Positions 2 through 58,290 of a stretch of DNA of 64,000 bases are shown in pieces. Made by a program: the position numbers and the translations under genes. The stretch comes from a virus: positions 1-64,000 of the IMG/VR virus record IMGVR_UViG_3300046517_001147. One strand, given 5' to 3'. Numbering within the stretch: the first letter of the stretch is position 1; the number at the start of each line of letters is the position of its first letter. The notes beneath the pieces are model-generated. The model made no database searches. It saw only the letters and a program-made list of their open reading frames with translations, and had not been told where the DNA came from.

Positions 2-3000
2 ACCTACGCGGAGCAGTTGACGATCGGCGCATCCGGAACCAGCGGAAGCCCTGTCACCATCACGGTAAATGGCGTCGGGACGGCCATTATAGACGGCGGC
101 AACGCTCGTACTGGATTTAGTTTCAACGGCCAATCCTTCGTAAACGTGGACGGTGTGACGGGCAACGCAGCGTTCGGCGGTTCTCAGACCTACGGAATCC
201 GTGTTATCAACATCGGCCTTCCAAACTACTGTGCCTACATAAACAACGGGGAGCAGCACGTAAAATTCCTTCACGTCGAGTGCTCCGGCAATGGGCAAAA
301 CACGGACAACGCGCATCTCAACGCTCCTCCAGTACCCGACGATAACCGTGGTGGAGTTTTCGGCGGCGGTGGCGCTCATTTCGTGGAGATTGCGTATGAC
401 TGGTTCCATACGCAGATGGCGCAATACAATCTTTCCACCTGCAGCATTTCAGGAACGACTTATACCTGCACGACGACGACGACGATCACAGACACCCATT
501 GGACTTCGCCTTCGGTGATTTTTGCCAGCATCGGTATTTACGGCAACACTGGAGTCAACGGTCACTGCGGCTTGATTAGCGCCAGTGGAACCACGTTTAC
601 CTGCGAAGGCGGCGGCTCCGGTACAGGTACGGGTGGCGTGGCGGTTATGGAATGGGCGGCCACGGCGGTCACTGGATTTTTCGCTACAGGAAGTACGAAT
701 TACAACGACAACACAACCCACGATAACTTTGCCTATGGCACGTTCAATGATGGCTTTCGCTCTAACGGAAATGGCCAGATTTATCACAACGAAGCACAAG
801 CCGGTATGGGCTCCGGCCATAGCGATGCGACCCTGGCTCAATCCGCTCTTTACGTAGAAATATCCAGCAATTATGTCCATGACTGGAACGACCAAAATTG
901 TTACCTGGACCAACTATCGGCAGCGTCCAGAGGGCACATTCGCATTTTCAACAATGTCTGGAACTCTCCTCACGGATTTGGCGGATGCAACGTAGACCCC
1001 GAAGGCGCTTCGGCCAACTGGGACGACATTGTGATGATTAACAACACGTCCTATTCGTCGAGAGATTATGTTGTTCGCTACGGCAACCAGGGCGGCACGG
1101 TAACCAACTTCGTATATATCAACAACATTTCCCGCGTCTCCGGTTCGGTTGGCGATCCGCCTTGGGCGGGTGGTGGCGGGATTGCTTTCGCTAGTTCCAC
1201 GGCCTACAACTACAACCTGTACTCCCCTACGCTTGGAGTGCAATTTCCAATCTTGGCAAATTTCAGCGGCGGGAATAAGACACTAGCGCAACTTCGGGCA
1301 CTCTCTCCACCCCGCGAACTGAATGGCAATACCTGCGACGTGACCTATGTTGGCGGAGCACTCCCGGCCGGCGCTCAACCTGCCTCTACCGACACTTGCT
1401 CTAAAAATGCCGGTCAGAATCTCACGGCTATCTATCCATTCGCCACTGTGGATTTTAATGGAGTCACCCGGCCTCCGACTGCTGCATGGGATTCAGGCGC
1501 AATGCAGGCTTCCGGCGGCGGTGGCGGAACGCCCGTTATCGGATTTTCTCCTAACCCGGCAGCTTTCGGAAACCAGATTCAGGGAACGACTAGCGCTCCT
1601 CTTACGATTACCGTTTCAAACAGCGGAACGGCCGCACAGGTTCTTTCTACGCCTTACTGGACAATCACCGGGACGAATGCCAGCAACTTTGCCAACGCGG
1701 GAACGGGAACCTGCGTCAACGGTGGGACTATCGCGATCAGCGGTTCTTGTACGGTGAACCTGACGTTCACTCCATCGGCTACCGGCGCGCGAACGGCTAC
1801 GTTCAACATTCAAGGCACGGTCAATGCTTCGGACAACCTAACGGGCACCGGCACCCTTCCGACTATCGGTCTTGCGCCAAGCCCTGCAGCTTTCGGCAAT
1901 CAGGTTGTCGGCACGCCAAGCTCGCCGTTGACGGTCACGGTTTCGAATACCGGCACGTCTACACAGACTTTAGCTAGTCCGTACTTCACGATTACCGGAA
2001 CAAATTCCGCGGACTTCTCAAATCTGGGAACTGGAACGTGCGTCAATGGCGGCTCTGTTCCGGCAAGCAGTTCTTGCACGATCAACCTGCGATTCACTCC
2101 AGCGGCGGCCGGAGCGCGCACAGCGACTCTAAATCTCCTAGGCACGGTCAATGCTTCTGACTCTCTGACCGGCACAGGCACGCAAGCGGCAATCAGCATC
2201 ACGCCAAGCCCCGGAGCCTTCGGAAACCAGAACGTCAACACAACCAGCGGACCACTGACGCTGACGGTTACCAATACCGGGACAGCCACGGAGACTCTAG
2301 CAACGCCTTACTTCACCCTGACCGGAACCAATTCGACCAACTTCGCCAATGCGGGTAGCGGGACGTGCGCCAACGGGGGAACGATCGCGGCTTCGGCTTC
2401 GTGTACGGTGAATTTGACGTTTACTCCGTCGGCGGCCGGTGCGCGCTCTGGAACCTTGAACATCCTGGGAACGGTGAATGGAACTGACGCACTGACCGGC
2501 ACAGGTGTTGCTCCCCTGGTCTCTTTAAGCCCGAATAGCATAGCCTTTGCGAACCAAACTACCAACACGTCCAGCGGAAACCAGGCCGTAACCCTAACCA
2601 ACACAGGGACGGCGACACTCAACATTTCCAGCATTACCTTGGTCGGAGCGAATGCCGCGGAGTTTTCTACCAATAGCAGCACATGCGGCGCGACTCTTAC
2701 CGCCGGCGCTTCCTGCTCCTTGAATGTGGTTTTTACGCCTACGACTGTGGGCAGCAAATCGGCCAATTTGACGTTCACTACTGACGCGGCAACAAGCCCG
2801 GATAGTGTGGCGCTCACTGGTACTGGAGTCGTTCCAGCGGTTCCAGTACTTAGTTTCTCTCCCAGTCCTGGCGCTTTTGGGAACCAACTGCAGAACACGA
2901 CCAGCGCGGGATTAACGATCACGGTCTCAAACATTGGGACTGGTCCCGAAGTTCTTTCAACTCCCTTCTTCACCATCACCGGAGCGAATGGCAGCGACTT

Positions 3001-5128
3001 CGCCAGGTCTGGAGGGACGTGCGTCAACGGCGGCGCGATTGTGGTTAGCGGCTCTTGTACGGTCATTTTGACTTTCACTCCGGCGGCGACGGGTAGCAGG
3101 ACCGGAACACTCAACATTTCAGGGACGGCTAACGGCTCAAACGTCCTGACCGGGACGGGGATTCAGCCGATTATCGGGTTGTCTCCTTCACCTGTAGCCT
3201 TTGGGAATCAACTGCAAGGCACCACAAGCGCTCCCTTGACCGTAACCGTGTCCAATAGCGGTACTGGGACTGAAACGCTGGCAACGCCCTTCTTTACGAT
3301 TACGGGAACCAACGCTTCAAACTTTGCGCGCAGCGGAGGAACCTGCGTCAATGCCGGCACCATCGCGCCAAGCGCTTCCTGCACCATCATCCTAACCTTT
3401 ACGCCTTCCGCTACAGGAGCCCGTAGCGCGACTTTAACGGTCCAGGGTACGGTAAACGCCACGGACTCCCTAACAGGCACCGGCACGCTCCCCGCTATTG
3501 CGCTGTCTCCTAGTCCTGTGGCCTTCAGTAATCAAAATCTGAACACTACCAGTTCACCGCTGACGGTGACCGTATCGAATACGGGTACAGCTTCCGAAGT
3601 CTTGGCCACTCCCTATTTCACGATCACCGGAACCAATTCCACAAACTTCGCGAATGCCGGGACAGGTTCATGCGCCAATGGCGGGACGGTTGCCGCAAGC
3701 GCGTCTTGCACAATCAATCTGACCTTTACCCCTTCGGCTACCGGGGCTCGTACTGGCGTCTTGAATGTTCTGGGCACCGTGAACGCCACGGCAAACATTA
3801 CCGGGACAGGGGTAGCCGCGGTCGTGTCGCTCAACCCGACTACGATCGCCTTTGGCAATCAGACGACTTCAACCTCTAGCGGGAACCATTTGGAGACTTT
3901 GACTAACACCGGCAACGGCACGCTAACCATTTCGAGTATCGCTCTGACCGGCGCGGATTCAGGACAATTCTCGACCAACGGAAGCACTTGCGGCGCGACA
4001 CTGGCGGCCGCTGCCTCTTGCTCGCTTAACGTGGTATTCAGCCCGACTACGATCGGAGCGAAAGCGGCAAGCCTGACATTCTCAACGAGCGCGGCCAGTA
4101 GTCCAGATAACGTAACTCTAAGCGGAACGGGTGTTTCCGCTGGCGTCCCTGTTCTAAGTTTTTCGCCTACTCCGGCTGACTTTGGGAGTCAAGCGGTAGC
4201 AACGACTGGTCCTCCGCTGACAATCACGGTAACCAACATCGGAACGGCTGCGGAAGTCTTGAGTACGCCTTACTTTACGATCGGTGGAGCGAACGGAACG
4301 AACTTCGCGAATACAGCGGGTGGAACTTGCGTCAACGGGGGCACCATCGCGGCCAACGGTGCTTCCTGCACGATTGTTCTGACGTTTACTCCGACCGCGC
4401 TCGGTACTAGATCGGGAAGTCTGACTATCGTCGGAACGGTAAATGGAACGAATCCTTTGACTGGGATTGGCACAGGCACAGGCACTCTTTCTCTCAATCC
4501 TACGAGCATCGCCTTTGGTAACCAGGACAGCGGAACGTCCAGCAATCCGCGCTCGGTCATCTTGACCAATACCGGAACCTTGACGCTGACAATTTCGAGC
4601 ATTGCCTTGACCGGAACGAACGCAAATCAGTTCTCGATCGATACCAATACCTGTGGCGCGACTTTGGCGGTTTCAGCTTCCTGCTCATGGAATGTGGTGT
4701 TCTCGCCTAACTTGGTGCAAAGCAATACGGCCAGCGTAACGATAACCAGCACCGCGACGAGCAGTCCAGACAATATCCCGCTGACTGGAACGGGCAGGAG
4801 TCCTACGCCTCCGTCTACTCCGGCGCCGGCTATTGTGATTGTGCGCGCCTTCCCGACCGGAAGCGTACTGGTGGCAGAGAATGTAGGAGTCACGCCAAAG
4901 AACTTTCAAGTGTCCTCAACTGGTTGCTCTCAGGATGGAGTCAATTTCCAGAATCCATGCCGGTTCGCGATTAGTTGCGGAAACTGCGGAAGACAAACCA
5001 CGGCCCGATTTAACGGAACGGCGGTAAGCCAGTCTTTTTCCAGGGGAACGGTTACAGTCAGTGTGCCGATCACTCTTTTCACCATGCCGGCACTGCCGAC
5101 TGAATATCAAATCTCGCTGCTGAATTGA
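2..5128 (+). CDS. Tail-spike-like protein: beta-helix followed by ten ASH-type repeats (5' truncated)
   Basis: The reading frame is open to the left edge, so the N terminus lies outside the window; the first possible internal start is a TTG at 17. From that start, residues 1-500 look like a right-handed parallel beta-helix, rich in Asn, Gly and Asp with many short beta-strand turns (INN, NNTSYSS, YINNIS). Residues about 505-1595 are ten tandem units of roughly 105-110 aa, each opening with a variant of LSPSPxAFGNQ and ending in LTGTG. This is the ASPM-SPD-2-Hydin / choice-of-anchor D type of Ig-like domain. The C-terminal 110 aa hold several Cys (CSQDG, CGNCG). A phage spike or depolymerase acting on the host surface is inferred from position at the end of the late strand. 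A cellular-type adhesin captured by the phage is the alternative. Confidence 0.85.
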   Translation, partial: TYAEQLTIGASGTSGSPVTITVNGVGTAIIDGGNARTGFSFNGQSFVNVDGVTGNAAFGGSQTYGIRVINIGLPNYCAYINNGEQHVKFLHVECSGNGQNTDNAHLNAPPVPDDNRGGVFGGGGAHFVEIAYDWFHTQMAQYNLSTCSISGTTYTCTTTTTITDTHWTSPSVIFASIGIYGNTGVNGHCGLISASGTTFTCEGGGSGTGTGGVAVMEWAATAVTGFFATGSTNYNDNTTHDNFAYGTFNDGFRSNGNGQIYHNEAQAGMGSGHSDATLAQSALYVEISSNYVHDWNDQNCYLDQLSAASRGHIRIFNNVWNSPHGFGGCNVDPEGASANWDDIVMINNTSYSSRDYVVRYGNQGGTVTNFVYINNISRVSGSVGDPPWAGGGGIAFASSTAYNYNLYSPTLGVQFPILANFSGGNKTLAQLRALSPPRELNGNTCDVTYVGGALPAGAQPASTDTCSKNAGQNLTAIYPFATVDFNGVTRPPTAAWDSGAMQASGGGGGTPVIGFSPNPAAFGNQIQGTTSAPLTITVSNSGTAAQVLSTPYWTITGTNASNFANAGTGTCVNGGTIAISGSCTVNLTFTPSATGARTATFNIQGTVNASDNLTGTGTLPTIGLAPSPAAFGNQVVGTPSSPLTVTVSNTGTSTQTLASPYFTITGTNSADFSNLGTGTCVNGGSVPASSSCTINLRFTPAAAGARTATLNLLGTVNASDSLTGTGTQAAISITPSPGAFGNQNVNTTSGPLTLTVTNTGTATETLATPYFTLTGTNSTNFANAGSGTCANGGTIAASASCTVNLTFTPSAAGARSGTLNILGTVNGTDALTGTGVAPLVSLSPNSIAFANQTTNTSSGNQAVTLTNTGTATLNISSITLVGANAAEFSTNSSTCGATLTAGASCSLNVVFTPTTVGSKSANLTFTTDAATSPDSVALTGTGVVPAVPVLSFSPSPGAFGNQLQNTTSAGLTITVSNIGTGPEVLSTPFFTITGANGSDFARSGGTCVNGGAIVVSGSCTVILTFTPAATGSRTGTLNISGTANGSNVLTGTGIQPIIGLSPSPVAFGNQLQGTTSAPLTVTVSNSGTGTETLATPFFTITGTNASNFARSGGTCVNAGTIAPSASCTIILTFTPSATGARSATLTVQGTVNATDSLTGTGTLPAIALSPSPVAFSNQNLNTTSSPLTVTVSNTGTASEVLATPYFTITGTNSTNFANAGTGSCANGGTVAASASCTINLTFTPSATGARTGVLNVLGTVNATANITGTGVAAVVSLNPTTIAFGNQTTSTSSGNHLETLTNTGNGTLTISSIALTGADSGQFSTNGSTCGATLAAAASCSLNVVFSPTTIGAKAASLTFSTSAASSPDNVTLSGTGVSAGVPVLSFSPTPADFGSQAVATTGPPLTITVTNIGTAAEVLSTPYFTIGGANGTNFANTAGGTCVNGGTIAANGASCTIVLTFTPTALGTRSGSLTIVGTVNGTNPLTGIGTGTGTLSLNPTSIAFGNQDSGTSSNPRSVILTNTGTLTLTISSIALTGTNANQFSIDTNTCGATLAVSASCSWNVVFSPNLVQSNTASVTITSTATSSPDNIPLTGTGRSPTPPSTPAPAIVIVRAFPTGSVLVAENVGVTPKNFQVSSTGCSQDGVNFQNPCRFAISCGNCGRQTTARFNGTAVSQSFSRGTVTVSVPITLFTMPALPTEYQISLLN

Positions 5129-21338: not shown

Positions 21339-21547
21339 TAGAGGGTCACCGTCACGGCATAGCCTTCGCGCTTCCAATACTCAAAAGCGTTTACGGTACG
21401 GTAGCAACGCGCTTTGTAAGTGGGATTAACACACAAGCCGTCAATCCAGTTGTACGCGCTCTGCTGGTCGGGGAAAGTTCCGCAAACAACTCCGGTCTCG
21501 GCGTGAATGACTAGGGTTTGGGTTGAGGGAATGGCGGTGGGCAGCAT
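21338..21547 (-). CDS. Small hypothetical protein
   Basis: 69 aa. TLVIHAETGVVCGTFPDQQSAYNWIDGL looks like an alpha/beta unit with a helix after a hairpin, and the end is KREGYAVTVTL. The start overlaps the stop of the ArdC-like gene. Function unknown. Confidence 0.5.
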   Translation of the reverse strand: MLPTAIPSTQTLVIHAETGVVCGTFPDQQSAYNWIDGLCVNPTYKARCYRTVNAFEYWKREGYAVTVTL

Positions 21548-22305
21548 TAGAACACCACGTCCTGCTTGGCAGTCTTCGGGAATCCAGGGCGGGAAAACGG
21601 CCGGTCAAATGACGGAACGTGGCGCGGTGTCTGCTGTAAGCGGCGGGGGAGTTTCTCCGGTTCGCGCTTAAACTCGTCAATCATGTCCATAATGTTGACG
21701 GTCTCTCCACGCATGGCGCGGTCGTAGGCGGAGTCTTTCGGCGGTTCGGGAGTCTCGCGTACCAGTTCGCAATTCTCGTCAAGCGTGAAAGTCTCAATCG
21801 TGGCTTCGGGGGAAAACTTCTCAATCTGCCGGTTAACATGCACGGCGGTTGAGTGGTCCAGCAATTCGGCTTCGTCGGTGTCTTCTTCACCGGCATACGG
21901 GATATTCTCCGGCGTGGCGTCGGGCTCATTGCCGTACAGAATGCCGTTGTAGCAGGGCATAGCAGGTTGAGCGGGAGTATAAGGTACGGTAACGCGGTCC
22001 GTGCCTACGAGCTCCGTCTGCGATACGTGGAATACCGTAACAGTCCATGGGCGGCGCTCTTCGCGGCCATTCTTGCCAGTCTTGGTGATAAAGGTGAGAC
22101 ACTTCACGCCATGTTCGCCCTTGCGGACCTGGCGGCCGTTCGCTTTCCATGCGTTGTACGAGAACACATTAACGCGGGGAATGATCTGATCTTCCGGGAT
22201 TCCCTTCGCCATAAAGCCCCGAATGATCGGCGCATAATTGCTAAAGGATTGACCGGAAACTGCGCGGGTAAGTGCTTCTTGCTGGATTGCTGCTGAAGTG
22301 GCCAT
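21547..22305 (-). CDS. ArdC-like antirestriction protein, N-terminal type
   Basis: 252 aa starting MATSAAIQQEALTR with AAGGAGCTTTACAG upstream. Residues 25-90 (SNYAPIIRGFMAKGI, VNVFSYNAWKANGRQVRKGEHGVKCLTFI) match the ssDNA-binding N-terminal domain of ArdC (DUF1738). The C-terminal metalloprotease part of full ArdC is absent; instead there is an acidic linker and a basic tail. First gene of the PL2 operon, where an antirestriction factor would be needed soon after entry. Loss of the protease half makes the activity uncertain. Confidence 0.7.
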   Translation of the reverse strand: MATSAAIQQEALTRAVSGQSFSNYAPIIRGFMAKGIPEDQIIPRVNVFSYNAWKANGRQVRKGEHGVKCLTFITKTGKNGREERRPWTVTVFHVSQTELVGTDRVTVPYTPAQPAMPCYNGILYGNEPDATPENIPYAGEEDTDEAELLDHSTAVHVNRQIEKFSPEATIETFTLDENCELVRETPEPPKDSAYDRAMRGETVNIMDMIDEFKREPEKLPRRLQQTPRHVPSFDRPFSRPGFPKTAKQDVVF

Positions 22306-22358
22306 CTGTAAAGCTCCTTGCCAACTGAGCCCTTTCGTCGGGCATCCGTGGCAAAACA

Positions 22359-22387
22359 AATGTACGCTAAACTGCGGACAACGTCAA
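22359..22387 (-). promoter_or_regulatory. Leftward early promoter (PL2)
   Basis: On the minus strand: -35 TTGACG (22382-22387), 17-bp spacer, -10 TACATT (22359-22364). It drives the ArdC-like gene and the following leftward genes. It carries operator copy 3 in the spacer. Confidence 0.65.
22361..22380. promoter_or_regulatory. Dyad operator copy 3 (most symmetrical)
   Basis: Minus strand TGTCCGCAGTTTAGCGTACA: six of seven positions in the arms TGTCCGC / GCGTACA are complementary. Same TGTCCGC directly after the -35 as at 17436 and 17479. Confidence 0.65.
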
Positions 22388-22435
22388 GCAAATTCGTATG
22401 AGTAAACGAAAATAATTTAAGTTTGTGAGTACTGG

Positions 22436-22444
22436 TGCTAAGCT
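22436..22444 (+). promoter_or_regulatory. Weak extended -10 candidate for the small-terminase gene
   Basis: TGcTAAGCT lies six bases before the ATG at 22451. No convincing -35 and no Shine-Dalgarno. If used, the mRNA would be leaderless. Low certainty. Confidence 0.35.
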
Positions 22445-22450
22445 CGCTGC

Positions 22451-23056
22451 ATGAAAGGTAGAAAGCAAACTAGATTCGATACTTCCAAGCGTCTTGAATC
22501 CTTTGCACGTCAATACGTTATCCTGGGTTTCAACGGTGAACGGGCTGCAATCGCTGCGGGTTATGCCAGAAAGAACGCAAAGGTAACTGCTTCTAGGCTG
22601 CTAACCAAAGCCAACGTAAAGGCTCTTGTCCAGCGGTTCGCGGCGCCGATTGAAAAAAAACTAGACTTTTCCGTGCATAGAACGTTGGAACAAATTGCGC
22701 GGCATGCGTTTGTAGACCCGCGCAGATTATTCAATGCAGACAATTCAATCAAGAGAATTGCGGACCTGGACGAAGATACGGCCGCTTGTGTGCATGCGAT
22801 TGAACACACTGGCAAGCGTACTGATAAGGTCCGGCTCACTAATCAACTGCATGCGCTTGAATTGTTGGCGAGGTATCACAAACTATTCGCTGATGACGTG
22901 GTCCAGCAAGATACCGGCATCCGCGTGATTGTTGTGGATGCTCCCAGGCCGCCACGTCTAGTGGGCTCCGGTCCTGCTACAACGTCGAACGGTAACGGAC
23001 ATAATGGGAATGGGAACGGCCATTCTAACGGCCATAAACCCGACCTGGACGATTAA
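22451..23056 (+). CDS. terS: Terminase small subunit
   Basis: 201 aa. Residues 15-55 (LESFARQYVILGFNGERAAIAAGYARKNAKVTASRLL) form the N-terminal HTH-like part of the Terminase_2 small-subunit family, and KALVQRFAAPIEKKLDFSVHRTLEQIARHAFVDPRRLF is the typical central helix pair. The C terminus is an Asn/Gly/His-rich tail (residues 178-196) that may be flexible or metal-binding. It recognises the packaging site for the large subunit encoded at 25201. First gene of the late rightward strand. Confidence 0.85.
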   Translation: MKGRKQTRFDTSKRLESFARQYVILGFNGERAAIAAGYARKNAKVTASRLLTKANVKALVQRFAAPIEKKLDFSVHRTLEQIARHAFVDPRRLFNADNSIKRIADLDEDTAACVHAIEHTGKRTDKVRLTNQLHALELLARYHKLFADDVVQQDTGIRVIVVDAPRPPRLVGSGPATTSNGNGHNGNGNGHSNGHKPDLDD

Positions 23057-23059
23057 AGC

Positions 23060-23143
23060 TGTACCCACAACTAGACGTTAGTACCCACAAATGTACCCAC
23101 GATTAGCTTGACCGATGTACCCACAATCCCGTATTGTACCCAC
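23060..23143 (+). repeat. Five direct repeats of GTACCCAC
   Basis: Copies start at 23061, 23081, 23093, 23117 and 23136, all preceded by T or A and most followed by AA. Spacings are 20, 12, 24 and 19 bp. The last copy ends directly at the ATG at 23144. The array covers the promoter of the ribbon-helix-helix gene, so it is a likely operator array for that protein. Confidence 0.75.
23108..23137 (+). promoter_or_regulatory. Promoter of the ribbon-helix-helix gene
   Basis: -35 TTGACC (23108-23113), 18-bp spacer, -10 TATTGT (23132-23137), six bases before the ATG. Two of the five GTACCCAC repeats fall in the spacer and over the -10. Confidence 0.5.
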
Positions 23144-23629
23144 ATGCCTAAGACCGAGACAATCAAGATACGGCTAAGCGATCGGGAGTTAAGCACCTGG
23201 ATACTGGCGGCTGAAAAAGAACGGGTGAGTTTATCGGAGTGGATAAGGTCGTGCTGCTCCAGGCCGGAAGGGAACGACAATGGAAACGAGACTAGTCAAA
23301 ACGTGTCACGGGCTCCGCGAGATTCGTCTACTAGACGGCGCGGTACTTCCGCCGGACGTGAGTCCAAGCGAACCGATCGAACATTCCGTGCGCCTCAAAA
23401 AAATAGTGAGTCTTGGGGAATTGATTCCAGTCCGGCGTCGAATGGGGATAGCGGAGCAGTTGAGACAACTAGTGCGGTCGGCATTCCTGAATCCGTTCCA
23501 GTCCAAAGAGTAATCCACACGGCCACATCTAACCGGCTAACCTGCCTCTGCAATACCTGTACGCTCTACCGCAAGAATAATTCCCTGCCTATCGGCGGGT
23601 TGCCTAAGAAAGAAAAGGTACAACGGTGA
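23144..23629 (+). CDS. Ribbon-helix-helix (CopG/MobC-like) DNA-binding protein
   Basis: 161 aa from the ATG at 23144. A TTG start 36 bases upstream is possible but would translate through the operator repeats. Residues 4-40 (TETIKIRLSDRELSTWILAAEKERVSLSEWIRSC) match the ribbon-helix-helix fold: a basic strand, then two helices. A long Ser/Arg/Asn-rich linker follows, then a C-terminal LTCLCNTCTLYRKN that may bind zinc. Autoregulation through the repeat array is inferred. The linker and Cys tail are unusual for simple CopG repressors. Confidence 0.7.
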   Translation: MPKTETIKIRLSDRELSTWILAAEKERVSLSEWIRSCCSRPEGNDNGNETSQNVSRAPRDSSTRRRGTSAGRESKRTDRTFRAPQKNSESWGIDSSPASNGDSGAVETTSAVGIPESVPVQRVIHTATSNRLTCLCNTCTLYRKNNSLPIGGLPKKEKVQR

Positions 23630-23865
23630 GCGACCTGGACCTGGATCAGCTTGTCCATACTCCCGAAGGCCGGTTAATGCTGGAAGTCTTGCAAGGTCGT
23701 CGGCTGCCGCTGATGGTGTGCATACAGGACAAGGGCGAAGTCGTGTTCTGGTATCCTCCGAAAATCCTCAATAACCTAATGACCGATGGCGAGCGTTTGA
23801 TTGAGTGGACTAGGTTGCTTGAGGAGCATGCGGCGCGGATGCTGGATCAGGTTCCCAAACAATGA
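23626..23865 (+). CDS. Small hypothetical protein
   Basis: 79 aa from a GTG start overlapping the previous stop. Acidic N terminus and a beta-hairpin (LPLMVCIQDKGEVVFWYPP), then two helices (LNNLMTDGERLIEWTRLLEEHAARML). No family recognised. Part of a coupled run of four small genes ahead of the large terminase gene. Confidence 0.55.
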   Translation: MSDLDLDQLVHTPEGRLMLEVLQGRRLPLMVCIQDKGEVVFWYPPKILNNLMTDGERLIEWTRLLEEHAARMLDQVPKQ

Positions 23866-25200: not shown

Positions 25201-26892
25201 GTGAGTCCTGCCGCAATCTCTGAACCTGTAGACGACGGTCAACGTAGTACTTCTTCGTTCTATCAGCCATGGCCACATCAAATTGCTTTTCACTGTTCTC
25301 CTGCGAAGTATCGTTTACAGGTCGGCGGGTTTGGTTCTGGCAAGTCGCGGCCGCTGCTGATGGAAGCAATCTTTCACTGCTTAGAGTATCCGGGCTCGAA
25401 TAGCATCATCCTGCGTAAGACAATTCCTGATCTAAAACGGACGGTGATCGACAAGTTTCTGGCGGATGTGCCGCGCTGGATGTACCAGTTCTACCACCAA
25501 GGCGACCACATTGTTTATTTCCATCCGCAACCCGAAGTGGACGCGAAAGGTAAGCCAACGGGTAAGATGCTGCAAAGCAAGTTGTTCTTTGGAGCGTGCG
25601 AACGCGAAGCGGATGTAGGCAAGTATCTTTCTACGGAGTACGTCTTTATCGGGTTTGAGGAGTTGGGAGAGTTTTCGTTTGCCATTTGGGATGCGCTGGC
25701 TGGCCGCAATCGCTGCCCGATCCCTGGAACACGTCCAACGATGGGTGGCGCCACTAACCCGATGGGTGTCGGCTGGTCATGGATTAAGAAGCTGTGGAAG
25801 GATAAAAAACCGTTTCAAGGAATGGATGCGGAGAAATACGACGCTGCCGATTATGAGTACTTCCATTCGACGGTGGACAATAACCCGCTGTACGCGAACA
25901 ACAAAGAATATATAGCGCAACTGGAACGGTCACCACTGCGAGATAAAATCCGGTGGGGCAAAATGGATTCGGTTTCCGGTCAGTTCTTCGAGAACTGGGA
26001 GCCGGTCAGACATTGTAGAGCAGCGAGCGATTTCACTTTTGAGGACTGGCAACCAGTATGGGTGGGATGGGACTACGGTTTTGGTCACTATGCCGGTATT
26101 GTTTTTTTCACTAAAGCGATTCTAAAACCTAATCTCAAGTTTGGATGGGACAAGCCGCGGCGGGTCAATGTGGCCATTAAAGAGTTGGTTATGTCCGGTG
26201 CTGCCGATGGCCAATCGCAAGGCGCTACTCCGGAGGAGCAAGCTAAAGCGCTGATTGCGTGCATCCCGCGAGTACAGATGCGGTCGCATAAAACCGGAGA
26301 AGATTTTGAGATGGAAGATACCTTCTCGTATGAGGAGCAAGAACGGGACAACGAGTACGGGTATAAGTGGAATGTGGACTCGATCCACTTTTCCTGGGAG
26401 CGGTTTAACCGCACGGTGAGTAATCGCACGGTAGCCGATGAAGTGGGAGAATTGTTGCAGCGTGCGGGTTTGCCTTTGCCTACACGGTCAAACACGGATC
26501 GGGTGGCCGGATGGCAAAAGATTTATGATTTGCTGGACACCGATGAGTTCTTTGTATTACAAAACGAGTGCCCGACATTGGCCGAAGCGATACCGTTGCT
26601 GGTAAGAGGCGATGGGATAACCTGTTCGGCTGAGGATGTGGTCAAGCCAAAAGGACTAAGTTTGAATGACGATATTGCCGAAGCATGCCGGTACGGGATT
26701 GCGGGAACGTTGTTAGATGCTTCCGATGTTCCGGAGTCGGTCAAGTTGCGCGAAAGATTACAGGCAATTAAAGACCCCATGGCCAGAGCAGCAGCAGCGT
26801 ATAGGGATTACAACTTGAAACAAGCAGCGCTGAAAAGACCGCCAAAGCCTATATCGGTTCCAAGCTGGTACAACAAATTGAGGCCGCAATGA
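25201..26892 (+). CDS. terL: Terminase large subunit
   Basis: 563 aa. The N-terminal ATPase has Walker A GGFGSGKS (residues 42-49), an LRKTIPDLKRTV adenine-side segment and a probable Walker B at YVFIGFEE (residues 147-154). The C-terminal nuclease half begins near VWVGWDYGFGHYAGIVFF (about residue 280; the Asp fits the first metal ligand of an RNase-H-type nuclease). It packages DNA with the small subunit and the portal. GTG start; no Shine-Dalgarno. The length is normal for the family. Confidence 0.93.
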   Translation: MSPAAISEPVDDGQRSTSSFYQPWPHQIAFHCSPAKYRLQVGGFGSGKSRPLLMEAIFHCLEYPGSNSIILRKTIPDLKRTVIDKFLADVPRWMYQFYHQGDHIVYFHPQPEVDAKGKPTGKMLQSKLFFGACEREADVGKYLSTEYVFIGFEELGEFSFAIWDALAGRNRCPIPGTRPTMGGATNPMGVGWSWIKKLWKDKKPFQGMDAEKYDAADYEYFHSTVDNNPLYANNKEYIAQLERSPLRDKIRWGKMDSVSGQFFENWEPVRHCRAASDFTFEDWQPVWVGWDYGFGHYAGIVFFTKAILKPNLKFGWDKPRRVNVAIKELVMSGAADGQSQGATPEEQAKALIACIPRVQMRSHKTGEDFEMEDTFSYEEQERDNEYGYKWNVDSIHFSWERFNRTVSNRTVADEVGELLQRAGLPLPTRSNTDRVAGWQKIYDLLDTDEFFVLQNECPTLAEAIPLLVRGDGITCSAEDVVKPKGLSLNDDIAEACRYGIAGTLLDASDVPESVKLRERLQAIKDPMARAAAAYRDYNLKQAALKRPPKPISVPSWYNKLRPQ

Positions 26893-51492: not shown

Positions 51493-53337
51493 ATGCGAAT
51501 CGGGTTAGTTACCAACTTCAAAGGGCGAGGACTGGAATGCGATGCTCGCCTAATCACTCCGCTGATTGAATCTGCAGGGCATACCGTTGAACGGCTGCAG
51601 TACGACGAAAAGCACCACGGCAATTTTGACCTGCTCATATTCCTAGAAGTGGTTCCGCGGCATCTGGTACGTCTTTCCGACACTCCACCGTGGGTTATCG
51701 TCAATCCTGAATTTCTGGTTCCGGAATACATTTCCACCATTCGCCGGTCATTTGGACGGGTGTTCTCTAAAACTCACGAAGCGCAACGCATCTCGAAAGG
51801 ACTGTTTGGAGATAAGGCGGAATATATCGGATTCCTCTCCGAAGACCGCTTCGATGAATCGATTGAAAGGCAAATGACGTTCCTGCACGTCGCGGGACAT
51901 AGCAAAGCCAAAGGAACGGACGCGATTATTGATGCTTGGCGCTGGACGCGGAACGGTGAACGGCTAAAAGCCAAGTTGACGGTGATAACCGATTTCCCGC
52001 CAGAGGATGTTCCCGAAGGCGTCACGATCTTGGAGAATGTGACCGATGCGGAACTGAAACGGCTGCAGAACGAGTGTCAGTTCCATTTGCAGCCTTCGCA
52101 GACCGAAGGATGGTCGCACGTCATTCACGAAGCAATGTCGGTGAACGCGACGATCTTGACCGTGGACGCTCCGCCGATGAATGAGATTAAATCGGCTTAC
52201 CGGATTCCTTCCTGTGGTTCAACGCTATTCAATCTGGTGCGGATGTACGAAGTTTCGGCGCTGGATATATACACCGCGGTATCGACTATGGCGAAATTTA
52301 AGCGCCAAGGATATTCGCAAGCCGGGGCTCCGCGCAGTGAATTTCTGGATGCCGTGAACGCATTCAAGGAAGCATTCACAGCGCAGTTGGCGACAGCCGG
52401 CCAAAGCGCGGCGGTTAGGAACGAGAAAGCAAGCCGGACGATCGCCTTTATTGGCAACTTCGAAGCGGAACACTCGACAGAAAATCAAATCCTGTGGGCT
52501 TTGGAGCAAAGGCTAGGCTATGAAGTCGATAAGCTGCAGGAAAACCGTATCAGCGCAGAGGACATAGAGGATGCTGCTTTAGGAGCGCGCGCACTTCTTT
52601 GGGTTCGCACTCCCGGCTGGCTGCAGATAACCAACGAACGAATGTTCGAAGTTCTGGAATACCTGAAACGGCGCAAGGTGGTGACCGCTTCGATTCACCT
52701 GGACAAGTTCTGGGACATACCGGAGCGGGAAGCGCTGATCGGTAAAATTCCCTTCTGGAAGACAGATTACGTATTCACGGCGGATGGATCGCGGCAAGAC
52801 GATTTCAAAGCGCGGGGAGTGAACCACATCTGGATGCGGCCAGCGGTTTCCGAAGTCTATTGCCATCCTGGGACGCCAAGAGAGGAGTACCGCTGCGATG
52901 TTGGATTTGTCGGAGCCAAAGGCGGCTATCACTCTGAATATCCTTTCCGGCAAAAGATGGTTGAGTTCCTAGAAGAGACTTATGGAAGCAGGTTCAAGCA
53001 TATTCAAGGCGTTCGCGGCCACTTACTCAACGACGTTTACGCTTCGATGAAAGTGGTGGTCGGAGATTGCTTCGGCGCGGGGATTCCGTACTACTGGAGC
53101 GATCGGTTGCCGGAAACTTGCGGTCGTCATGGTTTCCTGTTGCATCCAGAGGTCGAGGGGCTGGATATTCCTACAGCAGAGTATAGGTCTCAAGATATTT
53201 CACATTTGCAAATCATGGTTGATTACTGGCTGCGCGAAGATTCTGGTCGCTTGGATGTTCTGGTTGATTGCGCTGAACGGGTGAAGCTATCGCATACCTG
53301 GACAATCCGCATGGCAGAGATTATGGAGCAACTGTGA
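51493..53337 (+). CDS. Two-domain glycosyltransferase
   Basis: 614 aa. Residues 1-290 are a GT-B/GT4-type domain: MRIGLVTNFKGRG at the N terminus and ECQFHLQPSQTEGWSHVIHEAMSVNATILTVDAPPMNE with the E-x7-E-like donor site. Residues 315-614 are a second GT-B-type domain (AFIGNFEAEH, then DVGFVGAKGGYHSEYPFRQKMVEFL and GIPYYWSDRLPETCGRHGFLLHPEVEG, resembling CgeB/Glyco_trans_1_2 proteins). Two transferases fused in one chain suggest sequential sugar additions. It opens the glycan cluster behind its own promoter. Confidence 0.8.
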   Translation: MRIGLVTNFKGRGLECDARLITPLIESAGHTVERLQYDEKHHGNFDLLIFLEVVPRHLVRLSDTPPWVIVNPEFLVPEYISTIRRSFGRVFSKTHEAQRISKGLFGDKAEYIGFLSEDRFDESIERQMTFLHVAGHSKAKGTDAIIDAWRWTRNGERLKAKLTVITDFPPEDVPEGVTILENVTDAELKRLQNECQFHLQPSQTEGWSHVIHEAMSVNATILTVDAPPMNEIKSAYRIPSCGSTLFNLVRMYEVSALDIYTAVSTMAKFKRQGYSQAGAPRSEFLDAVNAFKEAFTAQLATAGQSAAVRNEKASRTIAFIGNFEAEHSTENQILWALEQRLGYEVDKLQENRISAEDIEDAALGARALLWVRTPGWLQITNERMFEVLEYLKRRKVVTASIHLDKFWDIPEREALIGKIPFWKTDYVFTADGSRQDDFKARGVNHIWMRPAVSEVYCHPGTPREEYRCDVGFVGAKGGYHSEYPFRQKMVEFLEETYGSRFKHIQGVRGHLLNDVYASMKVVVGDCFGAGIPYYWSDRLPETCGRHGFLLHPEVEGLDIPTAEYRSQDISHLQIMVDYWLREDSGRLDVLVDCAERVKLSHTWTIRMAEIMEQL

Positions 53338-54200
53338 CCCGCGTCTATATTGCCGGCTATCGCGGATTCATCGGTGGTCACCTGATCGACTATGTGAAGA
53401 AAAACACAGATTGGGAGATTACCAATGTCTCCGGCATTCAGCCTAACCGTGTAAACTACGTCGTTCATCTTGCCGGTCACTCGGAAATGGATAGATCGAT
53501 CGAAGACTCTTCTTTGATTCAAAGGGATATTTCTACGACGCTAAGTCTTTTAGATTGGGCGAAAACGCAAACGCAACTAGAAAAGTTCCTGTATTTTTCT
53601 AGCGATGAAGTCTTCGGGCCTAGAGGCGGACACCTGCATTTTGAACCGTGGGCCAGATACAACTCGCACAGCCCCTATGCTGCCGGGAAAGCTGCTTGTG
53701 AAGAAATGTGCCTAGCGTGGGCCAGCACTTATGACGTGCCGACGGTCGTTACTCACTGCCAGAATCTAATCGGAGAGAGGCAATCGCCAAAAAAGTTTCT
53801 TCCGACAGTTCTGCGGTGTGCTCTTACTGGTAAGCCGGTCCCTCTCTATGCTGATGGAGATACGGTAGCACAAAGGAATTTTCTACACGTGCAAGATGCG
53901 TGCGCTGCGATTGTGCTGCTGCTCCAAAAAGGGAAAGTACGAGAAAAATACAACATTGCTTCTAGGTTTTCTGTTTCCAGTAGAGACCTGGTTGAGATTG
54001 TTTCTAAAATCTTGCACATGAAGATAAAAATTGAGATGAGGCCAATTTGGGAAGTTCGGAAAGGCTTCTTTGTAGATCACGGAATAAATGGAGACGAACT
54101 AAGCTATTTGGGGTGGAAAAGGATGCCGCCGATGAGAACGCTCAAAAAGACAATCAGGTGGATGATTCGACCGGAGAATAGACATTGGCTCGGCCTATAA
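53334..54200 (+). CDS. NAD-dependent sugar epimerase/4,6-dehydratase
   Basis: 288 aa, short for the family. Rossmann GYRGFIG (residues 8-14), SSDEVFG (89-95) with Asp91-Glu92 like the acid pair of RmlB-type dehydratases, and catalytic Tyr115/Lys119 in SPYAAGKAA. QNLIGERQSPKKFLP and YADGDTVAQRNFLHVQDACAA complete the extended SDR pattern. Likely makes a deoxy- or modified nucleotide sugar for the neighbouring transferases. GTGA overlap with the preceding gene. Confidence 0.85.
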   Translation: MTRVYIAGYRGFIGGHLIDYVKKNTDWEITNVSGIQPNRVNYVVHLAGHSEMDRSIEDSSLIQRDISTTLSLLDWAKTQTQLEKFLYFSSDEVFGPRGGHLHFEPWARYNSHSPYAAGKAACEEMCLAWASTYDVPTVVTHCQNLIGERQSPKKFLPTVLRCALTGKPVPLYADGDTVAQRNFLHVQDACAAIVLLLQKGKVREKYNIASRFSVSSRDLVEIVSKILHMKIKIEMRPIWEVRKGFFVDHGINGDELSYLGWKRMPPMRTLKKTIRWMIRPENRHWLGL

Positions 54201-55093
54201 ACGTCGTGTGGCATGCAATGTCAAACGGGCGCGGCCTGTTTAACTGTACGGCCATGCTCAACGATATGCTGGACCTATACGACTGCCAGCACTACGGCGG
54301 CGCGAACGGGATGCCGCATTTCTTTTCATCCGGTGACGAAGGGGCAATCGTCGTTGTCCACGGCGGACGGGAGATAGGCGGACTCGAAAAACTGCAAAGG
54401 GACATTGACCAGCTAAATTGGTGCTTGCTCATTTTCCTGGGAGATGAAGAGGCGAGTTTTCCCGCGGAACTGGTGCAACACGAAAACATGATCGTTTGGG
54501 TGCAAGAGCCGCTTCCTGGGAAACACGACTTCGCGAAACGTTACATGGTCAACGGCTACGGCCACGAACACAACCGCTATCTCGTCAAGTGCGAGAAGGA
54601 TTTGGACTGGTTTTACGGAGGACAAGTCACGCATGAACGGCGCCGTGCGGTGGTAGATGCGTTGCGGAATGTGGATTGGGGAGGCTTCATAATCGAAACG
54701 CGGGGCTATCACCAAGGAATTTCCCTGCAGGAATACTACCGCTGCTTATGCCGCGCAAAGGTCGTTCCATGCCCTTCCGGGCCTTTCTCTCCAGATGCCG
54801 CTAGAATTTGGGACACGCTAGAATGCGGGGGGATTCCTATTCTGGACGATGTAAGCCCTGCCAGAACGGAACCTGGATTCTGGGCGTACACTCTTGGCGA
54901 GCATCCTATGCCCGTCGTTACAGACTGGAGCAAACTTCCAGAATTGATCGCAAAAGTGAAAGACGACTGGGTTGCACTTAGTTCAAACTGCCAATGGTGG
55001 TGGCATGCTTATCTAATGAAATTTAGAAGTTGGCTTTCGGAAGACATTGAGCAACTGACAGGAGCGCCGTGTACCAAAATCTCATCACGGTAA
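54185..55093 (+). CDS. Glycosyltransferase (exostosin-like C-terminal part)
   Basis: 302 aa from a TTG start overlapping the epimerase gene by 16 bases. The C-terminal half (RCLCRAKVVPCPSGPFSPDAARIWDTLECGGIPILDD at residues 186-222) has the exostosin/GT47-like nucleotide-sugar binding layout: C-P-x-G, S-x-R-x-W-D-x-L-x-x-G-x-x-P. The N-terminal half may bind the acceptor. Coupled to the following gene. Confidence 0.65.
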   Translation: MARPINVVWHAMSNGRGLFNCTAMLNDMLDLYDCQHYGGANGMPHFFSSGDEGAIVVVHGGREIGGLEKLQRDIDQLNWCLLIFLGDEEASFPAELVQHENMIVWVQEPLPGKHDFAKRYMVNGYGHEHNRYLVKCEKDLDWFYGGQVTHERRRAVVDALRNVDWGGFIIETRGYHQGISLQEYYRCLCRAKVVPCPSGPFSPDAARIWDTLECGGIPILDDVSPARTEPGFWAYTLGEHPMPVVTDWSKLPELIAKVKDDWVALSSNCQWWWHAYLMKFRSWLSEDIEQLTGAPCTKISSR

Positions 55094-55848
55094 TTACCAG
55101 CACTTCGCCGCTTGCTTCACACCCTTCATCGGAGATATTCGACAAGGTTTATGAAAGCACGCAATTCCATCTGCCGGGAGTCATCACGCATTTGTGTTGC
55201 GACGGCGTTCGCGAACCGGAGCACGAAAATAGACGCGCCGGGTACGAAGGCTACAAAGAAAAACTCCGCAACCGTCCATTCATTCAAATGCGGGAATGGC
55301 CTAAATCGGTCCAGCAAGGGTTCATGGTGCGCTCGGCATTGCGGCACGTCACGACTCCTTTGGTGCTCTGGCAGGAGCATGACTACGCTCTTACTCTTGA
55401 CCCGATCGACTGGGAAGGGATTATCAATGCCATTCAACAGGACCGGGCTCGCGTCGTTCGTTTCCATAACACTCCGGAGATTCACCCGCTTCACCAACAC
55501 TTAATGCTTGATTGCTACGAAGGCGCCGACGGCGAGCATGGCGGAGTAAAAGTGTCCGACCCGCCACTGGTTTGTGGCGTGCCGATGATTCGCACCATAC
55601 AGTTCTGGTGCTGCCCGTTCCTGACTACGACTGAATGGCTTTCTGGGATGATGGAAGACCCGACCCTGTTTACTCCAAACACTTATTGCGAGATTGAGCC
55701 GGTGATTTACGGACCAATTTCCTATAGACCCTGGCAAGACTACAAGGTGATGGTCTACGCGCCGTCTGAACCTTCCATTCAGCGCAGTCAACATCTTGGC
55801 GGTCGCGGACACGACAATGCCGATCCAAAGAGGCCAATGACATGGTGA
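55069..55848 (+). CDS. GT-A-fold transferase-like protein
   Basis: 259 aa from a GTG start overlapping the previous gene by 25 bases. MYQNLITVITSTSPLASHPS at the start, then VRSALRHVTTPLVLWQEHDYAL (residues 85-106), where EHD takes the place of the DxD metal site of GT-A enzymes. Aromatic, beta-rich C terminus with CEIEPVIYGPISYRPW. Probably a family-2-like glycosyltransferase; divergent. Confidence 0.6.
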   Translation: MYQNLITVITSTSPLASHPSSEIFDKVYESTQFHLPGVITHLCCDGVREPEHENRRAGYEGYKEKLRNRPFIQMREWPKSVQQGFMVRSALRHVTTPLVLWQEHDYALTLDPIDWEGIINAIQQDRARVVRFHNTPEIHPLHQHLMLDCYEGADGEHGGVKVSDPPLVCGVPMIRTIQFWCCPFLTTTEWLSGMMEDPTLFTPNTYCEIEPVIYGPISYRPWQDYKVMVYAPSEPSIQRSQHLGGRGHDNADPKRPMTW

Positions 55849-56399
55849 ACCTTGAACGCGCAGAGCAGGTAACCGGATGGATGAGCCGCCCCGAAATGGA
55901 ATGGCTGGCAGAGCAAGCCAAGAATGGCCTGGTCGTCGAGATTGGCTCTTGGATGGGCCGCACGACGCGCGCCATGGCCGACAACAAGCGGAGCGGGAAT
56001 ATCTTTGCCGTGGATACCTGGAAGGGCAGTGAAGAGAACCAGGACTTTCTAAAGGACAAGCCGGAAGATTACCTCTTCCAAGAGTTCTGCAAGAACCTGG
56101 CGGACCACATAGCAAGCGATGTAGTGACTCCCTTGCGGATGGATTCGATCGGTGCGGCTTACCACTTTGCGCGCCTTGGAACACAGTTCCAGTTTGTCTT
56201 TATCGACGCGGCGCATGACTACGATTCGGTGAAGGCCGATATTCTGGCTTGGCGGCCGCTGGTGGCGCGGGGCGGGACTCTCGCCGGTCACGATTACGAT
56301 TGGGGCTATCCTGGCGTGGTGCATGCCGTCCGCGAGCTAATTTCAGAAACACCTAATCAAGCTGCCGGCGGTTCTTCCATCTGGTACACGCAAATATGA
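55842..56399 (+). CDS. Class I SAM-dependent methyltransferase
   Basis: 185 aa. VVEIGSWMGRTTRAMAD (residues 31-47; motif I E-x-G-x-x-x-G), IFAVDTWKGSEEN (motif II, Asp ending beta-2), and FVFIDAAHDYDSVKADILAWRPLVARGGTLAGHDY (post-motif metal-type pattern as in Methyltransf_24). It likely methylates a sugar or glycolipid in this cluster. Short overlap with both neighbours. Confidence 0.8.
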   Translation: MVNLERAEQVTGWMSRPEMEWLAEQAKNGLVVEIGSWMGRTTRAMADNKRSGNIFAVDTWKGSEENQDFLKDKPEDYLFQEFCKNLADHIASDVVTPLRMDSIGAAYHFARLGTQFQFVFIDAAHDYDSVKADILAWRPLVARGGTLAGHDYDWGYPGVVHAVRELISETPNQAAGGSSIWYTQI

Positions 56400-57202
56400 C
56401 CAGGATAAATCGCATGGTTGACGGAGTGATTGTCGGGGATGAGATTGGAAGGTACGAAGCCGGAAACAAGTTTCGGCCGGTCGAAACGATCGATTTCGTA
56501 GAACAAGCCATTAACGACCGCTGGAACATCCGCATTCCCAGATGTATTGCCGAATATCACGGCTGGTGGGATACCTGGGAAAAAGAACGGCATCTTTCTA
56601 TGGCCAAGCATCTCAAGCCGGGAATGTCGTTTTTCGATGTGGGAACGTGCGACGGTTGGGAAGCTGTAGTGTATTCCCAGATGATTGGTGGCGCCAAGAA
56701 AATGATGTTGATCGAACCTTCGGTAGTGATGTGGCCGAATATAAAACTCATGTGGGAGAAAAACAGGCTGGCCAAGCCACTAGCTACTTATTGCGGTTTC
56801 GCGTCGGATGTGGACAGTTCCGATAGAAGCTCAGTGAACCATAGCCGCTGGCCAAGAGAAGCGCGTGGAGATTTTATGAAGGGCAACGCTTTCATGCTCA
56901 TGGAACGGAATGAGCATGCCGCGATACCGCGCAGGAAACTAGACACATTGGCTTCGCAGACTTTTGTTCCCGACGCGATAAGCATTGATGTGGAGGGAGC
57001 GGAATTGCTGGTATTGCGGGGAGCGCGGAAAATTCTGGAGAAAAAACATCCTTTGGTCTGGGCGTCGATTCATCCTGAGTTTATCAAGAGGTTTGGACAC
57101 ACTCCGGATATGCTGCATGAGTTTATGACTGACTGTGGATACTCAGGCGAATATCTTGGGAACGATCACGAAGATCACTATTTCTTTAAGGCAAAAAGAT
57201 GA
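56396..57202 (+). CDS. FkbM-family methyltransferase
   Basis: 268 aa. GMSFFDVGTCDGWEAVVYSQM (residues 75-95) is the SAM-binding motif, MMLIEPSVVMWPNI follows as the second strand, and PDAISIDVEGAELLVLRGARKILEKKHPLVWASIHPEF (residues 197-234) carries the D-V-E-G-A-E signature of FkbM enzymes, which O-methylate sugars. It overlaps the next gene by four bases. Confidence 0.85.
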   Translation: MTRINRMVDGVIVGDEIGRYEAGNKFRPVETIDFVEQAINDRWNIRIPRCIAEYHGWWDTWEKERHLSMAKHLKPGMSFFDVGTCDGWEAVVYSQMIGGAKKMMLIEPSVVMWPNIKLMWEKNRLAKPLATYCGFASDVDSSDRSSVNHSRWPREARGDFMKGNAFMLMERNEHAAIPRRKLDTLASQTFVPDAISIDVEGAELLVLRGARKILEKKHPLVWASIHPEFIKRFGHTPDMLHEFMTDCGYSGEYLGNDHEDHYFFKAKR

Positions 57203-58290
57203 ACTGGCCTAGCGTCTCGATTGCTTTCCCTTGCTGGCACCGCGGAGCGCTGCTTCGGAACACTCTTGAAAGCATCCGCAAGCAGAACTATCCCGGTGAA
57301 TTGGAATTGATCGTAGTGGAAGAGGACGACGACGGTCTGACAGAAAACTTGGCAACGGAGTTCGGAGCGCGGTATATACGCAATCCGCGGCTAGAGGCTT
57401 TCCCGGTTTTTCAGTCCATTACAAAGCTCTGGAACATGTGTTTGCACGCGACCACCAATGAGATTGTGATTCTGCAGTGTGCCGAAGTGCTGCACAAGAA
57501 CGACGCGATAATCCCGCTGGTCGTTCGCGTTCTGGGTAACCGCAAAGTTTTGGCAACTCCACTGATCGAAGACTTGAACCAGGATGGAACGTTCGCCGGC
57601 TGGTACAACCACCCGACCGAAGGCTCACGGCCGGGATGGGTTTCTGGCGCTGGACCACACTGCTTCCGCCGTGAGGAGATGCTAGAAGTCGGCGGCTATG
57701 AGGAGTTGTTCTACGGCTACGGTGGAGAGGACAACTATCTTTTCTTCTTACTCAAGAAAAATGGATGGAGCGTTGAATACGTGGAATCTGCTATTTGCGC
57801 CCACCAATGGCATGAACGGACCAAGTACGAGCCAACGACCGGCTACGCTAACCGTTCGCTAATCAACATTCTGACTATGGAAGTGGACAGAGGGACGCGC
57901 GCGCCGGTTGCCAACAAAGAACCTCTCGATTTGCGCGAGAGTCCCAATGTTTCGGAACTTAACAATGTTCTGCTACGCACCAACTATTTTCCGATGAGCG
58001 ACACTTTTTCAAACTGGCGTGCGGAGTGGTTGCAGATTGGCACGGAGACTCATCCCGACAACCTGTTTGTGGTGCAACGGATTGTGGCCAATGAAGGATT
58101 GGGGAAGGTCTCGGAGATTGGGGAAGCGCTTACCGAATGCGCTTGGGCCATTCTGCGGGAGACAGAGGCTAGGTTTGTGGCTGCCCTGGCTTACGGGAAC
58201 TGGAAAACCAGAGCGTCTTTCTGCGCTGACATTCACGCAACTTGGGCTGCGCTTTCTCTCGACAAAGCCAAACAGCTAATGGAGAAATGA
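57199..58290 (+). CDS. Family-2 glycosyltransferase
   Basis: 363 aa. SIAFPCWHRGALLRNTLESIRKQNYPGELELIVVEEDDDG (residues 7-46) is the GT2 donor domain, with EDDD as the metal-binding acidic cluster. VSGAGPHCFRREEMLEVGGYEELFYGYGGEDNYLFF (residues 149-184) holds the acceptor/catalytic ED. A C-terminal 120-aa helical part has no known role. Coupled to an FkbM gene by ATGATG. Confidence 0.85.
   Translation: MNWPSVSIAFPCWHRGALLRNTLESIRKQNYPGELELIVVEEDDDGLTENLATEFGARYIRNPRLEAFPVFQSITKLWNMCLHATTNEIVILQCAEVLHKNDAIIPLVVRVLGNRKVLATPLIEDLNQDGTFAGWYNHPTEGSRPGWVSGAGPHCFRREEMLEVGGYEELFYGYGGEDNYLFFLLKKNGWSVEYVESAICAHQWHERTKYEPTTGYANRSLINILTMEVDRGTRAPVANKEPLDLRESPNVSELNNVLLRTNYFPMSDTFSNWRAEWLQIGTETHPDNLFVVQRIVANEGLGKVSEIGEALTECAWAILRETEARFVAALAYGNWKTRASFCADIHATWAALSLDKAKQLMEK

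Follow-up and report, generated by a model that had tools for sequence, protein, structure and literature searches.

A probable autoregulatory repeat operator at a ribbon-helix-helix gene with a nested reading frame in an uncultured phage

We analysed a window of 64,000 nucleotides taken from the 68,462-base record of an uncultured virus, in which five copies of the 8-mer GTACCCAC cover the predicted promoter of a gene for a ribbon-helix-helix (RHH) protein. These five repeats are very probably the sites at which the RHH protein shuts off its own promoter. The full explanation, to which we attach high confidence on the strength of sequence comparisons among contigs of uncultured viruses, is that the array is an autoregulatory operator of the RHH protein, that the DNA-binding domain and the operator form a swappable module, and that a second gene is nested in the +1 frame of the RHH gene.

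The repeat array and the ribbon-helix-helix gene

Table 1. Features of the locus, with coordinates as positions in the window
Feature	Position	Strand	Basis or remark
Small terminase subunit TerS (Terminase_2)	22451..23056	+	Pfam/PHROGs; ends 4 bp 5' of the array
Candidate operator array	23061-23068, 23081-23088, 23093-23100, 23117-23124, 23136-23143	+	GTACCCAC copies, extended consensus TGTACCCACA
Predicted -35, TTGACC	23108..23113	+	promoter scan; same position relative to the repeat in relatives
Predicted -10, TATTGT	23132..23137	+	promoter scan and relatives; 6 nt 5' of ATG
Putative RHH autorepressor gene, 161 aa	23144..23629	+	RHH domain about aa 1-40, disordered linker, Cys tail
DNA-contact beta-strand TIKIRL, aa 6-11	23159..23176	+	alignment with relatives; role from RHH family knowledge
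Overprinted +1-frame ORF, 77 aa, inside the RHH gene	23280..23513	+	conserved core codons 1-27 = 23280-23360
Conserved RHH-frame tail, H125 + CLCNTC (C134, C136, C139)	23516..23560	+	alignment
Small ORF 3' of the RHH gene, kept in the group	23626..23865	+	
Large terminase subunit TerL	25201..26892	+	Pfam/PHROGs

A search for exact copies of GTACCCAC recovered the five members of the array (23061-23143) at the starts and with the start-to-start spacings of 20, 12, 24 and 19 bp that an earlier note on this DNA had given, and a sixth, stray copy on the minus strand at 33161. The expected number of exact copies per window was 0.98, and none of 100 shuffles reached six. No other 8-mer of the window is clustered as densely as this one (5 copies per 83 bp); in Markov-1 simulations (n=60) the maximum for any 8-mer was 2 (54 times) or 3 (6 times) copies per 90 bp.

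The predicted promoter, TTGACC-18-TATTGT, extends over 23108-23137 with a spacer of 18 bp. Two copies lie over it, as had been claimed: the fourth, at 23117, is inside the spacer and the fifth, at 23136, runs over the last bases of the -10 hexamer, stops at 23143 and abuts the ATG at 23144, in agreement with the earlier observation that the last copy ends at the start codon. The sites thus overlap predicted promoter elements of the gene's own promoter, as is expected of an autoregulated operator. The extended consensus TGTACCCACA is an imperfect TGT-N4-ACA dyad.

The product of the gene starts with a real beta-alpha-alpha RHH domain (MetJ/Arc/CopG), as the earlier note had proposed, judging from weak profile matches, predicted helices and best PDB matches to RHH proteins. 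The Pfam NikA-like match was weak (E 0.0016), its 19 bits falling short of the MobC/NikA family cut-off of 27 bits, and the PHROG match was to 'Arc-like repressor' (E 0.023). The predicted model contained confident helices at residues 13-25 and 30-39 and a low-confidence linker. Fold matches in the PDB included AtaR, NikA, Arc and CopG with probabilities of 0.93-0.99, and also AmrZ; the E-values of these matches are weak because the domain covers only about 38 residues. Residues T6, K8 and R10 of the TIKIRL strand are presumably those that read the DNA. At the other end of the protein, H125, C134, C136 and C139 were invariant across seven relatives, and this Cys tail may be a metal site.

In the mechanism that we propose, RHH dimers would bind each TGTACCCACA site via the T6/K8/R10 beta-strand, and the bound dimers would lie over the whole promoter, from the -35 through the spacer to the -10, and over the beginning of a leaderless transcript. 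In this way the RHH protein would repress its own promoter and the small operon begun there.

Several other regions of the window were noted. TerS ends in a Gly/Asn/His-rich low-complexity tail (GNGHNGNGNGHSNGHKPD, 22930-23056), and similar tails are found in related TerS proteins. Divergent from TerS is an ORF at 21547-22359 on the minus strand that by eye resembles ArdC-like antirestriction proteins. A 1703-aa ORF at 17-5128 on the plus strand contains many repeats like choice-of-anchor or HYDIN-type domains (by eye) and is likely to encode a virion or surface protein, and a run of ORFs at 51493-59878 resembles, again by eye, glycosyltransferases, a sugar-nucleotide epimerase and methyltransferases.

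Repeats and DNA-contact strands in other phages

A scan for three copies of GTACCCAC with spacing between them, run over 2.9 million viral contigs, returned 53 loci. Many of these proved to be tandem repeats within coding sequence that kept the reading frame, and they were excluded. In nine contigs (L007, L010, L032, L034, L040, L041, L043, L050 and L052, of which L032 and L034 are near-identical) the array was located before or within a small RHH gene with a strand of the form x-K-[IFL]-R, mostly T-x-K-x-R. A second scan that required two copies and an ATG yielded L090, with the strand TLKIRF in the RHH gene and the repeats upstream on the opposite strand. Since all of these loci were collected by searching for the exact repeat, the association of K-strand RHH proteins with the repeat was tested one way only. 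The flanks of the searched 8-mer were also conserved, with a T before it in 29/34 copies and an A after it in 27/34, giving TGTACCCACA; neither flanking base was selected for in the first scan. Nearly all exact copies per genome sit at this single locus.

Promoter geometry recurs in this set. The repeat lies within the -35/-10 region in 9/10 promoters of the GTACCCAC class, window included. In L050 the repeats are mostly within the gene and not in the promoter spacer. In L052 (TTGACA-16-TATAAT) and L090 (TTGACA-17-TATAAT) the hexamers match the consensus perfectly and have the repeat between them, and one repeat copy is often found at the start codon in the unrelated phage contigs of this class. 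The -10 ends as little as 6-7 nt 5' of the start codon in the window, L007, L040, L041, L052 and L077, from which we infer that the mRNA is probably leaderless.

Copies of GTACCCAC also occur inside RHH coding sequence (L050:1039-1260, L052 on the reverse strand at about 727-770, and L018:3156-3283), where they encode Val-Pro-Thr repeats with identical codons each time; in L018, nine copies lie 5' of an RHH-like segment with the strand VKLRL. An actinobacterial set (L001, L020, L022 and L045), with palindromic sites and a different small protein, was kept apart from the RHH set. Its sites of the GTGGGTACCCAC type, two or three of them with a spacing of 20-24 bp, lie just 5' of a small protein (about 90 aa) that is unrelated, and may be a convergent operator.

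Neither the promoter/operator pattern nor the nested ORF had a match in 84,980 bacterial and archaeal genomes, and the RHH protein had none among the annotated phages searched. A plasmid search with the RHH protein gave only chance-level MobC matches (E 0.4-5), narrower RHH scans gave no loci beyond those already found, and the top matches of a literature search on the motif GTACCCAC/GTGGGTAC were unrelated.

Closer relatives were retrieved via TerL and via the nested ORF. Among relatives with 73-99% identical TerL the RHH domain has been swapped, and the repeat differs alongside. The window and L054 share 99% identity in TerL and 94% in the RHH tail, as compared with 40% in the RHH domain, and the repeat has changed: L054 has the strand VTIRV and TGTCTTAC repeats. 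The same strand is found in L061, with TGTAAGACA and TGTCTTACA in mixed orientation and the latter abutting its ATG, and in L070, with TGTCTTAC directly 3' of TerS and then TTGACA. In L068 and L077 the strand is LLLKL, and ATATCCC is present just 5' of the -35 and again in the spacer. The TGTCTTAC class thus consists of three independent genomes (L054, L061, L070) and the ATATCCC class of two (L068, L077). L065 (strand KIAVTF) had no clear array, only the palindrome GTACGTAC.

Pairwise comparisons over the three classes gave RHH domain identities of 58-66% for the same repeat class and 31-49% for different classes. TerS is 72% identical between the window and L061, which have different repeats, and just 34% identical between L068 and L077, which have the same repeat. 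By these identities, the repeat tracks the RHH domain and not TerS or TerL. The earlier note had counted a failure of the repeats to be kept in close relatives as evidence against an operator. Taken literally this is what we observed, since the closest relative carries a different repeat; yet the repeat and the DNA-reading strand were switched jointly. The RHH-operator reading that the note had put forward is strongly supported on three counts: the arrangement is conserved across phages, the repeats fit the promoter, and repeat and contact strand covary.

The covariation of strand class with repeat class points indirectly to recognition of the DNA by the N-terminal strand. The residue that changed between classes is the middle DNA-facing position of the strand (K8 in the window). 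AmrZ contacts two adjacent guanines with a lysine and another guanine with an arginine, both in its strand (PMC3325190). By analogy, such contacts would fit the pairing of K with GTGGGTAC and of T with GTAAGAC.

The DNA identity between the window and L054 drops between about 22,400 and 23,280. In this segment TerS, the operator and the RHH domain are jointly divergent, with about 51-82% DNA identity as compared with mostly 90-100% in the flanks, and judging from this profile 22400-23280 is an exchange hotspot. In L070, a GIY-YIG-like ORF (L070:2689-2955, plus strand; Pfam GIY_YIG_2, E 2e-4, just under the cut-off) separates the operator/promoter from the RHH gene, which looks like the insertion of a homing-type gene into the cassette.

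We propose a swappable specificity module made up of the DNA-binding domain and the operator, such that related phages would have the terminases in common, along with the RHH tail and the nested gene, and differ in the RHH domain with its matching repeat. If this is true, natural operator switching would create repressor types comparable to immunity groups. Across these relatives, which form a natural series, the DNA-reading strand and the operator co-change with the neighbouring genes nearly identical, so that a code of specificity that pairs Lys with GGG and Thr with AAG is directly testable.

A reading frame nested in the +1 frame

All seven members of the group (7/7) contain the +1-frame ORF, in the same frame, fully nested and with the same ATG. 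Openness of the frame was discarded as evidence for a gene: it was not significant under synonymous shuffling (p mostly 0.1-0.7), and the frame is open by composition alone. The distribution of substitutions is more informative. Over the first 27 codons, the numbers of variable columns at +1-frame positions 1, 2 and 3 were 15, 8 and 21. The fewest are at position 2, which is the wobble position of the RHH frame, so that the RHH wobble is the most conserved position in the overlap; it was variable in 8/27 codons there versus 28/28 in the RHH tail (Fisher p 8e-9). The mean amino-acid identity over the 27 codons was 71% in the +1 frame versus 45% in the RHH frame. When the substitutions were randomly re-placed 2000 times, the largest identity difference was 0.115 versus the observed 0.267, which was reached in 0/2000 cases. 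This pattern of conservation indicates a real nested gene under purifying selection in the second frame. The RHH frame itself runs on to the invariant Cys tail, and therefore both frames appear to be used.

Alternatively, the conserved +1 frame might not be a separate gene, and instead reflect a signal in the DNA or RNA, or else the terminal part of a frameshift product of the RHH gene. The compositional openness of the frame and Shine-Dalgarno sequences that by eye are weak before the conserved ATG would be compatible with this. We consider it unlikely, since the variation has the codon rhythm of the +1 frame, which is not expected of a DNA or RNA signal, and since the nested ATG is conserved throughout the group.

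With a profile of the conserved core, the best matches outside the group in all fetched sequence were to L007 and L032/L034 (E 0.15 and 0.16), followed by L041 (E 4.4); these E-values are weak, and each match lies in precisely the +1 frame relative to the RHH gene of the distant contig. Similarities in the +1 versus the RHH frame of the distant sets were 49% versus 36% and 48% versus 26%, with a codon-position pattern that is not clear-cut.

The nested protein had no Pfam or PHROGs family match. Its AlphaFold model had a mean pLDDT of 62.6, with an N-terminal beta-meander over the first 20 or so residues at a pLDDT of about 85 and uncertain helices. Its translation would start internally, at 23280, on the autoregulated mRNA that also encodes the RHH protein. 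As to its function, our guess, made with low confidence, is a small regulatory or packaging-associated partner that is co-produced with the repressor. Such a conserved protein is likely to be missed by ordinary gene finding because it is nested inside another gene. A linker of low complexity that looks odd can reflect a second gene overlapping it: the Ser/Arg linker that the earlier note had called odd is present, and its oddness is explained by the overlapping gene, which the note had missed.

Alternative roles and comparison with known systems

It had been suggested that the array might mark a packaging site, recognised as a pac site by the small terminase or assisted by the RHH protein, with the array placed exactly between the two terminase genes. 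The gene order is as described, but with TerS ending at 23056 and TerL starting at 25201 about 1.6 kb of small ORFs intervene. The position directly 3' of TerS and 5' of TerL would suit such a site, and in L077 TerS is also directly upstream. The repeat adjoins both terminase genes in the close group only; in distant members TerL is several to 17 kb off, as judged from locus ranges. The packaging reading is disfavoured, and in our view very unlikely, because the repeat class does not follow TerS in the pairs window/L061 and L068/L077, as a pac site would, and because TerL is distant in the distant members. A secondary role of the RHH-bound array near the packaging genes is possible.

A segregation site, also raised in the note, would be a parS-like centromere for a ParB-type protein of the RHH class, of the kind known from plasmid pSM19035, with autoregulation as a by-product. 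An RHH protein with an array over its own promoter at a single locus per genome resembles this arrangement, and RHH ParB proteins also regulate promoters overlapped by their sites (PMC9499535). The pSM19035 sites consist of 7-10 contiguous heptads, of which four contiguous ones are required for full function (PMC9499535). The copies analysed here are not contiguous but start 12-24 bp apart, no ParA-type ATPase (PF13614) was matched in the 68-kb record, and no integrase (PF00589) in its 68,462 bases; the packaging and structural gene set of the window is typical of an ordinary phage. We regard a partition site as highly improbable. A relaxosome role of the MobC/NikA kind is not supported, with no match in the record to a relaxase of the family searched (PF03432) and a family score below the cut-off.

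Replication iterons, another suggestion of the note, or DnaA-type boxes for a host or phage replication protein are scarcely credible: the repeats are direct and similarly spaced and GTACCCACA is by eye alike to the DnaA box at 7/9 positions, but this reading is contradicted by near-identical phages that differ in both the repeat and the RHH domain, and the repeats fit promoter elements across unrelated genomes.

We return to the array as an RHH operator. The locus has the defining features of neither RA3 MobC nor pSM19035 omega. MobC of plasmid RA3, likewise of the RHH type, has its site between the -35 and the -10 of its own promoter, which it represses from there (PMC4175270). The position of the repeat between the hexamers and the broad MobC/NikA-like RHH type are shared; however, the RA3 site is a single imperfect palindrome and the operon under MobC control is that of a relaxase, whereas the phage locus combines a direct-repeat array in the context of packaging genes with a Cys tail and a nested gene, and no PF03432 relaxase was found. 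Omega (ParB) of pSM19035 binds as RHH dimers to arrays of short non-palindromic repeats overlapping promoters, its own included (PMC9499535). Here too an RHH protein is combined with an array of short direct repeats over its own promoter. The omega repeats are contiguous 7-bp WATCACW units at six loci with a ParA partner, in contrast to the 8-10-bp repeats spaced 12-24 bp apart at one locus without a PF13614 match. Arc, Mnt and AmrZ have the same DNA-binding fold, with strand residues that read the major groove, and AmrZ represses its own promoter, as is proposed here; their operators consist of two or a few sites, and they lack a series of exchangeable domains and operators as well as the Cys tail and the nested gene.

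Overprinted virus genes encode a second protein in an alternative frame of an older gene (review PMC8227390). The nested gene resembles these, with the second frame located within a disordered linker, and differs from others in being nested in the repressor gene of a tailed DNA phage, for which a limited literature search found no precedent.

A broader reading, for and against which we see about equal weight, is that several unrelated lineages of uncultured phages carry a dual-coded control cassette close to where the packaging and morphogenesis genes begin, in which an RHH autorepressor with an exchangeable domain/operator module and a conserved small +1-frame protein are expressed from a leaderless, self-limited transcript. 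The RHH autorepressor switch is known from other systems; within the RHH superfamily, the array operator, the exchangeable domain/operator module, the Cys tail and the nested gene set this locus apart as a new form of it.
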